Assembly (NCBI GenBank): GCA_036495095.1
Contig: DASXNK010000062.1
Location: 1-44,787, forward strand
Source of the DNA: Candidatus Dormiibacterota bacterium
Lineage (GTDB): Bacteria > Chloroflexota > Dormibacteria > Aeolococcales > Aeolococcaceae
DNA length: 44,787 nt
Direction of reading: 5' to 3'
This document shows, piece by piece, positions 23,611-27,167 of this stretch; position 1 is the first letter of the stretch; the number at the start of each line of letters is the position of its first letter. Made by a program: the position numbers and the translations under genes. The notes beneath the pieces are model-generated. The model was not told the origin of the DNA, searched no databases, and worked only from the letters and a program-made list of their open reading frames with translations.

Positions 23611-24345
23611 ATGGAGATCCACGTCGAGGAGCACCCGGGGCGGGCCCCCGCGACGGTCTGGCTCCACCACGGCGTCGGCACCGCGGCGGCCTGGAACCCC
23701 TTCCTCCCGGCGGCGGCGGGGGGGCGCCGGGCGATCGCCTACGACCGCCGCGGCTTCGGCGCCTCGGGCCGCGACCGCGAGTTCGGCGACCGGCTCTTCG
23801 ACGAGGATGCCGCCGACCTCGCCGCCGTGCTCCTCGACCGCGGCGCCGCCCCCGCCCACCTCGTCGGCCACAGCGACGGCGGCACCATCGCGCTGCTCTG
23901 CGCCGCCCGCCGTCCCGAGCTGGTGCTCAGCGTCGCCACCGTCGCCACCCACGTGCGCAGCGACCCGGTCACGGTGGGCACGCTGCGGCGGATGGGTGCG
24001 CCCGGCGGCTGGGACGAGGCGCTGCGCCGCAACCTCCGTCGGGTGCACGGGGCCGACTGGGAGGAGGTGGCGGGCGCCTGGCACCGGCTCTGGACCGCCT
24101 CGGAGTGGGCGGAGCGGTGGACCATCGAGGCCGAGCTCGCCGCCATCCGCTGCCCGCTCCTGGCCTGCCAGGACCGCAGCGACGCGCTGGCGCCGCCGCT
24201 CCACGCCGAGGCGATCGCCGCCGCCCGGCCCGGCGCCCGGCTGTCGTGGTGGGACTCGGGCGGCCACGACCCCCACCGCACCGACCGCCGCCGCTTCACC
24301 GCCGAGCTCGAGGCGCTCTGGGAGCAGGCCGAGACCGGAGAGTAG
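23611..24345 (+). CDS. Alpha/beta hydrolase
   Basis: A 244-residue soluble hydrolase. It has the oxyanion-hole HHGVGTAAAWNPF, the AYDRRGFGASGR segment, the nucleophile elbow GHSDGG (S88), the acid region LLACQDRSDALAP and the catalytic His in SGGHDPHRT. The ATG at 23611 follows TGGAGG. It lies 34 bases before the CoA-ligase gene in the same direction, so the two may be co-transcribed. A role in ring-cleavage product or thioester hydrolysis would fit, but the family is too broad to say. Confidence 0.88.
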   Translation: MEIHVEEHPGRAPATVWLHHGVGTAAAWNPFLPAAAGGRRAIAYDRRGFGASGRDREFGDRLFDEDAADLAAVLLDRGAAPAHLVGHSDGGTIALLCAARRPELVLSVATVATHVRSDPVTVGTLRRMGAPGGWDEALRRNLRRVHGADWEEVAGAWHRLWTASEWAERWTIEAELAAIRCPLLACQDRSDALAPPLHAEAIAAARPGARLSWWDSGGHDPHRTDRRRFTAELEALWEQAETGE

Positions 24346-24379
24346 AGTTGCGGCGTCACCGGATCGGAGAGGAGCGAGG

Positions 24380-25975
24380 ATGACGACCGCGAGCGCGACC
24401 ACCGGCAGCACCGTTCCGGCGACCCTGCCGGACCGGCTCAACGCCTGCGAGTGGCTGCTCGACCGGAGGCTCGCCGCCGGCGACGGAGACCGGGTCGCGG
24501 TCCGGTGCCGCGGCCGCGACCACACCTATGCGGAGCTGACCGCCGAGGCGGCCGCCGTCGCCGCGGCGCTGCGCCACAGCGGGGTGCGGCCCGAGGAGCG
24601 GGTGCTGCTGGTGATGGTCGACGGCCCCGAGATGGTCGCCGCCTTCTGCGGGGCGATGCGGATGGGGGCGGTGCCGGTGCCGCTGTCGACGATGTCGACG
24701 CCCGCCGACCTCGGCTTCCTCGCCGCCGACTCGCGGGCCCGCCTGGCGGTGGTGTCCGAGCCGTTCCTCGAGGGCGGCCGGGCGATGGCCGCGGGCGGCG
24801 GCGGGCTCGCCGACCTGGTGGTGTGCGGCGGCGATCCCGGGCCGGTCACGGGCGCCGCGCGGGTGCACCGCTGGGACGACTGGCTGGCGGCGGGCGCCGG
24901 CGCCGATGGCGCGCCGCTGGCGACCCACCGCGACGCCCCGGCGTTCTGGCTCTACACCTCGGGGACGACCGGCCAGCCCAAGGGGGCGATGCACCGCCAC
25001 GCCGACATCCCCTTCACCGCCGAGACCTACGGCAGCCTGGTGCTCGGCATCCGCCCCGACGACCGCTGCTTCAGCATCGCCAAGCTGTTCTTCGCCTACG
25101 GGCTGGGCAACTCGCTCAGCTTCCCCTTCTCCGTCGGCGCCACGGTGATCCTCGAGCCCGGCCCGCCCAGCCCGGCATCGGTGGCGGCGCTGGTGGCCGC
25201 GGAGCGGCCGACGCTCTTCTTCGCCACTCCCACCTTCTACGCCGGGCTGCTCGCCGCCGACCTCCCCGAGGACACCTTCGCCTCGGTGCGCCAGGGCGTG
25301 TCCGCCGGTGAGGGGCTGCCCGCCCCGGTGCTCGAGCGCTTCCGGGAGCGCTTCGGCGTCGAGATCCTCGACGGGCTCGGGAGCACCGAGGCGCTCCATA
25401 TCTTCCTCAGCAACCGTCCCGGCGCGGTGGTCCCGGGCAGCTCCGGCACCCCGGTGCCCGGCTACCAGGTGCGGCTGGTCGACGACGCCGGTGCGGAGGT
25501 CGACGGCGACGAGCCCGGCCACCTCATGGTGCGTGGCGAGTCGCTCGCCACCGGGTACTGGTGCCGCACCGCGGTGACCCGCCGGATCTTCTGCGGCGAC
25601 TGGGCGCGCACCGGCGACATGTACGTGCGCGGCGAGGACGGCGTCTACCGGCACTGCGGGCGCTCCGACGACATGCTGAAGGTGGGCGGCATCTGGGTCT
25701 CGCCCGCCGAGGTCGAGGCGACGCTGGTCGCCCACGAGGACGTGGTCGAGGCCGCGGTGGTCGCCGAGAGCGACGCCGACGGCATCCAGCGCCCGGTCGC
25801 CCACGTGGTGGTGCGGCCCGGCCGATCGGTCTCGCCCGACGACCTGATCGAGTTCTGCCGGGCCCGCCTCGCCGCCTTCAAGCGACCCCGCCGCGTGGTC
25901 CTCTGCGAGCAGCTTCCCAAGACCGCGACCGGAAAGATCCAGCGATTCAAGCTACGGAGCCACGACCATGGGTGA
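24380..25975 (+). CDS. Benzoate-CoA ligase family acyl-CoA synthetase
   Basis: A 531-residue adenylate-forming enzyme that makes an acyl-CoA from a carboxylic acid, ATP and CoA. The P-loop YTSGTTGQPKG is at 192-202, the substrate-pocket strand FFAYGLGNSLSFPF follows, and the A5 motif is GSTEALHIF. The D-x-x in WARTGDMY, the hinge GRSDDMLKVGG and the catalytic Lys in KTATGKIQRFKL complete it. The FAYGLGN strand and overall layout are those of benzoate-/4-hydroxybenzoate-CoA ligases, so an aryl acid is a fair guess. The ATG at 24380 follows GGAGAGGAGCGAGG. The end overlaps the next small gene by eight bases. Confidence 0.93.
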   Translation: MTTASATTGSTVPATLPDRLNACEWLLDRRLAAGDGDRVAVRCRGRDHTYAELTAEAAAVAAALRHSGVRPEERVLLVMVDGPEMVAAFCGAMRMGAVPVPLSTMSTPADLGFLAADSRARLAVVSEPFLEGGRAMAAGGGGLADLVVCGGDPGPVTGAARVHRWDDWLAAGAGADGAPLATHRDAPAFWLYTSGTTGQPKGAMHRHADIPFTAETYGSLVLGIRPDDRCFSIAKLFFAYGLGNSLSFPFSVGATVILEPGPPSPASVAALVAAERPTLFFATPTFYAGLLAADLPEDTFASVRQGVSAGEGLPAPVLERFRERFGVEILDGLGSTEALHIFLSNRPGAVVPGSSGTPVPGYQVRLVDDAGAEVDGDEPGHLMVRGESLATGYWCRTAVTRRIFCGDWARTGDMYVRGEDGVYRHCGRSDDMLKVGGIWVSPAEVEATLVAHEDVVEAAVVAESDADGIQRPVAHVVVRPGRSVSPDDLIEFCRARLAAFKRPRRVVLCEQLPKTATGKIQRFKLRSHDHG

Positions 25976-26231
25976 GACCTTCCGCCGCGACCCCGACCTC
26001 CCCGGGCGCATGGGTGGGCGCTGGCGCGAGCCGGCGATGAAGCCGGTGGAGGTGGTGGGCGCCCGCCTCGACGGCGAGCCCCGCTGCACCGAGCACGCCC
26101 TCCAGGGCGCCACCGACCCGATGCACACGCTGGTCGGCGGCGGCCGCCTGGTGTGGATCACCGAGGACAGGGTCGACCCCGAGTCCCCGATCCAGTGCTC
26201 GGTCTGCGAGACGGTGCTGGGTGCCGGCTGA
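25968..26231 (+). CDS. Small Cys-containing protein coupled to the CoA ligase
   Basis: An 87-residue soluble protein I do not recognise. The first half is basic with Arg-Trp pairs. The second half has CTEHAL and, near the end, CSVCETVL, so a Cys/His metal-binding site is possible (C-x2-H about 40 residues before C-x2-C). Its ATG overlaps the end of the CoA-ligase gene by eight bases, so the two are probably co-translated. Codon use is like the neighbours. A zinc ribbon-like accessory protein is one guess. Confidence 0.65.
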   Translation: MGETFRRDPDLPGRMGGRWREPAMKPVEVVGARLDGEPRCTEHALQGATDPMHTLVGGGRLVWITEDRVDPESPIQCSVCETVLGAG

Positions 26232-26343
26232 CTGAGGGGAGGGTCACCGCCGCTCCCGCGACCGTCCGGTCGGATGCTGCGCCGACCGCCACGAACGACG
26301 CGATCGAAGCTGCTAGTTCCCTTGAGCAGGTGGTTCGGGGTAC

Positions 26344-26439
26344 CATCGTGCTAGCGCCGTTCGCGGCGCTCCCAACGATGTGTTTCTCTCCCCAGTTGCG
26401 GGGGCCGGTGGCGGATTCCGTGCCGGCCCCTTCTTTTTT
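26344..26439 (+). ncRNA. Candidate structured RNA or attenuator leader
   Basis: An outer stem CATCGT/ACGATG (26344-26349 with 26375-26380) encloses a perfect seven-pair hairpin AGCGCCG-TTCG-CGGCGCT (26353-26370). The run CCCC at 26390-26393 can pair with GGGG at 26400-26403, which would break the terminator stem at 26401. Two mutually exclusive structures ahead of a terminator is the layout of a transcription attenuator. I recognise no known riboswitch or T-box consensus. If transcription starts from TACCAT at 26341, the left arm of the outer stem would be lost, so the extent is uncertain. Confidence 0.45.
26401..26439 (+). terminator. Strong rho-independent terminator
   Basis: GGGGCCGG (26401-26408) pairs perfectly with CCGGCCCC (26423-26430). 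Inside, CGG/CCG (26412-26414 with 26418-26420) closes on the three-base loop ATT. The U-tract TTCTTTTTT (26431-26439) follows directly. The tract is on the plus strand only. It ends either the operon of the CoA ligase or a short leader RNA, 62 bases before the phosphatase start. Confidence 0.85.
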
Positions 26440-26501
26440 AACCAGGGAAGCGGATGCGCCGGCGTGGAGCGGGCGCCCCTGAAGTTGAGAAGATCCGACC
26501 G

Positions 26502-27167
26502 ATGAGCCAGTCCCCTGCCACGACGCGTGTCTACCTGGTCCGCCACTGCGACGTCGAGAATCCGGACCGGGTGCTCTACGGGCACCTCGAGGGCTTCCGG
26601 CTCAGCGAGAAGGGGGTGCGCCAGGCCCACGCCCTCGGCGAGCGGCTGGCCGGGACCCCGGTGCGCCAGATCTATGCGAGCCCCCTCGAGCGGGCCCAGC
26701 AGACCGCCCGGATCATCGCCTCCCACCTCGACGGCGTCCCCGTCACCACCACCCCCGAGCTGGTCGAGGCCCGCTTCGGCCACTACCTCCAGGGGGTGCG
26801 GGCCAACCTGAACATCGTCTGGCGCAGGCCGCTCTGGGGGGTGCACATGCTCTGGCCGGGCCTCCTCCCCAACGACGAGACCGTCGCCGAGATGGCCGCG
26901 CGGGTGCGCGCTCCATTGCTCCGCCTGGTCCGAGACCACCCCGGTCAGGGCGGCATCTGCGTCAGCCACGGCGACCCCATCCAGGCCTTCTGGGTGGAGA
27001 GCGAACGCCGGCGCGCCTGGGCCCTCCATCGCCTCGAGTGCGCCAAGGGGGGGATGCTCGAGCTCGACTTCGAGGGCGAGCGGCTGGCGGGGAAGCGCTA
27101 CCTCCCGCCCGAGGAGACCGGGGTCTCCGCCGGCGACTCGGCGGCGGCCGACGCCAGCCACGCGTAG
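26502..27167 (+). CDS. Histidine phosphatase superfamily protein (phosphoglycerate-mutase-like)
   Basis: A 221-residue enzyme of the PGM/acid-phosphatase branch. The phospho-acceptor His is in YLVRHCDVENP near residue 15. The usual RHG is RHC here, an unusual change. Other active-site parts are normal: IYASPLERAQQTA (second Arg), ELVEARFGHY (Glu) and ICVSHGDPIQ (second His). The ATG at 26502 is preceded by GAGAAG. An upstream in-frame ATG at 26454 lies just after the terminator and adds 16 unconserved residues. The C-terminal 70 bases overlap the convergent resB gene. It is most like the broad-specificity phosphatases of this family; the substrate is unknown. Confidence 0.9.
   Translation: MSQSPATTRVYLVRHCDVENPDRVLYGHLEGFRLSEKGVRQAHALGERLAGTPVRQIYASPLERAQQTARIIASHLDGVPVTTTPELVEARFGHYLQGVRANLNIVWRRPLWGVHMLWPGLLPNDETVAEMAARVRAPLLRLVRDHPGQGGICVSHGDPIQAFWVESERRRAWALHRLECAKGGMLELDFEGERLAGKRYLPPEETGVSAGDSAAADASHA

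Follow-up and report, generated by a model that had tools for sequence, protein, structure and literature searches.

A candidate free-standing small RNA gene with an exposed C-rich linker, inverted between two species of a Chloroflexota genus

Small RNAs (sRNAs) with C-rich, unpaired segments are known from several bacteria. In Staphylococcus, the UCCC motifs of RsaE and RNAIII act on Shine–Dalgarno sequences (PMC9217828). NfeR1 is an Hfq-independent sRNA with anti-Shine–Dalgarno motifs in unpaired regions (PMC10746234). The alphaproteobacterial sRNA suhB/mmgR (RF00519) consists of a short hairpin, a GUUU-CUCCC-AG linker, and a GC terminator with a U tract in about 80 nt. Among the papers listed in our literature searches, none was an sRNA study in Chloroflexota. 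Here, we describe an element in a window of 44,787 nt, the whole stretch of DNA analyzed, from the genome of a Chloroflexota bacterium (G000), which resembles these RNAs in different respects. It shares with suhB/mmgR the parts listed above, the length, and a similar spacing, and RF00519 is its nearest sub-threshold bacterial match in Rfam. However, this alignment is weak (17.3 bits, far under the gathering threshold of 41), and the host of the element has no detectable Hfq. No intermediate homologues link the two, and convergence is therefore more likely. Like the RsaE/RNAIII class of C-rich sRNAs, the element has a UCCC(C) motif able to pair with G-rich Shine–Dalgarno sequences, but it shows no sequence relationship to them and has one such motif compared with two in RsaE. 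With alphar14/NfeR1 it shares an unpaired anti-Shine–Dalgarno motif and, presumably, independence from Hfq, whereas alphar14/NfeR1 has three hairpins, each with CCUCCUCCC, and does not match it in sequence. RsaE, RNAIII, and NfeR1 are regarded here as analogies to the element, not as its relatives.

The sequence of the locus makes it very probable that the element is an independent sRNA gene, whatever its mode of action. The likely specific form of this reading is a free-standing sRNA of about 87 nt that would act in trans and without Hfq through an anti-Shine–Dalgarno seed, UCUCUCCCC. The features of the locus are as follows.

25968–26231, plus strand: upstream neighbor, an ORF of 87 aa with a CxxC pair near its end, present only in G000 and its sister species G001 among 61 genomes searched.
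26258–26311, plus strand: conserved region upstream of the promoter, a possible regulator site; 46 of 52 aligned bases are identical in G001, inverted along with the rest of the block.
26339–26348, plus strand: putative −10 promoter region GGTACCATCG with the hexamer TACCAT at 26341–26346, assigned from recurrence of the motif at gene starts.
26353–26439, plus strand: predicted small RNA of about 87 nt, with the start from the spacing to the −10 hexamer and the end from the terminator.
26353–26370, plus strand: predicted 5′ stem-loop AGCGCCG-UUCG-CGGCGCU of 7 pairs, identical in G001.
26383–26395, plus strand: pyrimidine linker UUUCUCUCCCCAG, single-stranded and mostly unpaired in the predicted ensemble, identical in G001; proposed anti-Shine–Dalgarno seed, complementary to purine-rich ribosome-binding sites.
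26400–26439, plus strand: intrinsic terminator, a GC stem (26400–26431) followed by the U tract TTCTTTTTT, predicted from the fold and kept in G001.
26502–27167, plus strand: downstream neighbor, a histidine phosphatase (PF00300, Pfam 2.1e-34).

A sequence-only reading had described a nested hairpin with a TTCG loop, a pyrimidine run, and an 8-pair GC terminator with a nine-base U tract, located 62 bases before a phosphatase start. The run UUUCUCUCCCC is found at 26383–26393, with CCCC at 26390–26393, and the stem GGGGCCGG/CCGGCCCC of 8 GC pairs lies within 26400–26431. The phosphatase ATG at 26502 is indeed 62 bases past 26439. The U tract occupies nine bases (26431–26439), but it is composed of 8 U and one C. 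The UUCG loop is located at 26360–26363 on the plus strand, but the outer stem of the nested hairpin is likely DNA of the −10 promoter element.

This revision follows from the promoter. The −10-like motif GGTACCATCG, or GGTASCATCG in its general form, occurs 9 times in G000. Each of the other eight precedes a gene or a long ORF, tRNA-Leu among them, and at some of these sites the CDS start codon is 6–7 nt after the hexamer, which is a leaderless arrangement. From TACCAT at 26341–26346 and the spacing at the other motif sites, transcription is predicted to begin at 26353, precisely where the 5′ hairpin begins. The outer part of the nested hairpin, CCATCG..CGATGTG, likely uses bases of the −10 element; it would accordingly belong to the promoter and be absent from the RNA. 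The promoter is thus recognized by its motif and not by a mapped 5′ end, and no clear −35 sequence was recognized upstream of the TACCAT hexamer. The motif, as TAGCATCG/TACCATCG, was also observed 6–8 bases before the start codons of the phosphatase (loci L034–L060) and of other genes (G000 C23:23418 and C25:4233). In many family relatives, TAGCATCG is at the same position before the phosphatase start. This recurrence suggests that TAGCATCG/TACCATCG is a −10 element used for widespread leaderless transcription in the class.

At the other end, the RNA has its own Rho-independent terminator, as judged from the fold and the T tract. The stem preceding the U tract has a predicted energy of about −26 kcal/mol, and neither strand of the 44.8-kb window, which is 73% GC, contains another tract in which 7 or more of 9 bases are T. 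A simple promoter/terminator scan missed the terminator at 26400–26439 because the stem is interrupted. The 99-nt stretch containing the whole element folds at −47 kcal/mol (z = −4.25), and none of 200 shuffled sequences was equally stable. The predicted transcript alone folds at −38.9 kcal/mol (z = −2.17; 4 of 200 shuffles as good). In the predicted structure, the linker lies partly within and partly next to an 18-nt loop that a weak CAAC/GUUG stem closes, and the loop presents UUUCUCUCCCC.

A BLAST search of the element against 101 related genomes gave one convincing match (96% over 139 bases), in G001, a member of the same genus (Chloroflexi bacterium RYN_343, contig JAQBPI010000094.1). The remaining matches were short and GC-rich and were not accepted as homologues. 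Direct alignment confirmed that G001 has the block 26258–26442 in inverted form, flanked by the same two genes: the minus strand carries the phosphatase and the 87-aa ORF, and the plus strand carries the element, in a contig that contains no N. The element is therefore independent in orientation from both neighbors. Elsewhere between the genes, the two species share no alignable sequence except TGAGAAGATC, a short stretch kept just before the phosphatase start. Selection thus appears to have preserved the unit whichever way it points, and hardly anything more of the intergenic sequence. An inverted syntenic copy of this kind can discriminate a leader from a free sRNA.

The promoter-like motif, the terminator, the conservation, and the inversion can be read directly from the DNA. 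Between G000 and G001, 84 of 86 transcript bases and 38 of 39 aligned promoter bases are identical, compared with 516 of 651 four-fold degenerate sites (79%) in four flanking CDSs. In a simple binomial model with the four-fold rate, the probability of at most two changes among 86 bases is 5.7e-7. Against the overall CDS divergence of 7.9%, the P value is 0.03 for the RNA and 0.009 with the promoter; the excess conservation is modest on this scale, and the constraint on the RNA is at least as strong as that on coding sequence. This comparison comprises two sequences and two substitutions in the transcript: one is in the loop, and the other affects the bulge of the terminator and creates an additional pair in G001.

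So far, the element has been seen in this genus only. No Rfam family (riboswitch, T-box, 6S, 6C, or other) reached its gathering threshold anywhere in the window, in agreement with the earlier statement that no riboswitch or T-box was matched, and the relaxed threshold gave sub-threshold matches only. A covariance model built from the two sequences was used to search 110 genomes of the class and 400 of the phylum, and only G000 and G001 were convincing. The other matches were weak (about 19–28 bits). The three top matches in the phylum share one sequence, which resembles an internal part of a protein-coding gene (clpB-like), and the others were partial or lacked the linker. A scan of genome contigs with the 17-base linker gave 17 matches, one of which was G001 (L085); the organism names attached to the remaining 16 belong to unrelated groups, and this number is about that expected by chance. 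The element was not found in the phages, plasmids, and viral contigs searched. It was not found in G002, the third member of the genus, either; this genome is 67% complete and its phosphatase contig stops just before the start codon, so the absence is uninformative. No convincing homologue outside the genus was present in the genomes searched.

The sequence-only reading had left two options, a new attenuator or a small RNA. As an attenuator, the element would be a cis leader of the phosphatase in which the terminator has a CCCC/GGGG hairpin as its competitor and read-through depends on a ligand or a translation event. Its placement in the window fits this idea, since it is co-directional with the phosphatase and ends 62 bases before it. 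The competition proposed for the CCCC at 26390 is also seen in part: when the fold is predicted for a transcript truncated ahead of the terminator's 3′ arm, CCCC(AGUUGC)GGGG pairs. In the predicted fold of the full transcript, however, the terminator prevails and most of the linker is unpaired. The competing hairpin has 4–5 pairs, much weaker than the terminator, and no aptamer-like fold was observed. The leader reading is strongly weakened by G001, where promoter and RNA are nearly identical while the unit as a whole is directed away from the phosphatase. The position and orientation of the element upstream of the phosphatase are thus not conserved, and it was not found upstream of the phosphatase in other genomes of the family. 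The orthologous phosphatase genes of the family come without the element, and a −10-like motif stands just ahead of the start codon in many of them. In G000 and G001, TGAGAAGATC could perhaps, on weak evidence, be the phosphatase's own −10 element, and GAAGAT, the genus counterpart of TAGCATCG before the phosphatase start, may have this role. From these comparisons, the phosphatase is probably not controlled in cis by the RNA, and an attenuator is very unlikely. The small RNA option is the one favored by the promoter motif, the terminator, the purifying selection, and the inversion of the conserved unit. Slightly less credible still is the refuting reading offered earlier, an ordinary 3′ terminator of the upstream operon beside unrelated hairpins. 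Alpha/beta hydrolase and AMP-binding acyl-CoA ligase-like genes lie upstream (window 23611–25975) and apparently form one operon with the 87-aa ORF, which had no match in Pfam. The terminator is on the same strand, 170–200 bases past the stop codon of this ORF, but the conserved promoter motif separates the terminator from the end of the operon, and the inverted terminator of G001 has the wrong orientation to serve that operon.

The opposite orientations in the two species might also reflect a DNA cassette, mobile or invertible, that switches a promoter by its orientation. We consider this extremely improbable: the block ends without flanking inverted repeats (one 9-bp pair, 26267–26275 with 26493–26501, does not bound it), no recombinase was identified beside it, and it is single copy and absent from the phage and plasmid collections. 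Moreover, the terminator travels inside the block, and the promoter therefore drives neither neighbor. An independent sRNA working by another route, as a protein-binding RNA, a sponge, or a dual-function RNA from which a tiny peptide is translated, starting at AUG 26377, deserves more weight but is still rather unlikely. The RNA is a stable two-hairpin molecule with a conserved loop, as this reading would have it, and in both species no stop codon interrupts the frame from AUG 26377 within the RNA (window 26377–26482 and L085). No Shine–Dalgarno sequence precedes this AUG, however; the frame enters the terminator, its end differs between the two species, and one of the two changes in it is non-synonymous. 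The frame is probably not translated.

For the trans-acting sRNA, candidate targets were sought through the linker, which is complementary to GGGGAGAGA-like ribosome-binding sites; for several genes, the predicted duplexes have energies of −23 to −30 kcal/mol. The full complement of the seed has 30 matches in G000, modestly above the 19 in a reversed control; those at ribosome-binding sites include C31:24514, C194:51516, and C99:14895. A search for the seed complement in three genomes of the genus found no conserved target. The C99 site and a site in G002 with the identical 15-mer precede unrelated genes. Any C-rich RNA can pair with Shine–Dalgarno sequences. As such pairing is generic and the matches are only modestly above the control, we claim no specific target. 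The Hfq on which an Hfq-dependent sRNA relies in its host was not detected: PF17209 had no match in 21 genomes, and the controls were positive in E. coli and others.

Here, we propose a mechanism for the element, for which we infer transcription, action in trans, the seed, and the target class. Directed by the TACCAT −10 element, RNA polymerase would initiate near 26353 and terminate at the U tract near 26439. The resulting RNA of about 87 nt would contain a stable 5′ UUCG hairpin, the exposed linker, and the terminator hairpin. The linker may then pair with the purine-rich GGGGAGAGA-like Shine–Dalgarno sequences of distant mRNAs and block ribosome binding without Hfq.

Judged from its sequence, the element is best described as a predicted sRNA of a known general kind, without an Rfam family and so far only in one genus. 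More tentatively, and with rather less than even confidence, it might be the founding member of a new sRNA family in this class of Chloroflexota, an Hfq-independent anti-Shine–Dalgarno regulator of many purine-rich ribosome-binding sites that is convergent with mmgR/RsaE-type RNAs. Because of its clear predicted ends, its strong conservation, and the natural inversion that separates it from its neighbors, the unit is a good first test case for regulation by a C-rich seed in a lineage without detectable Hfq.
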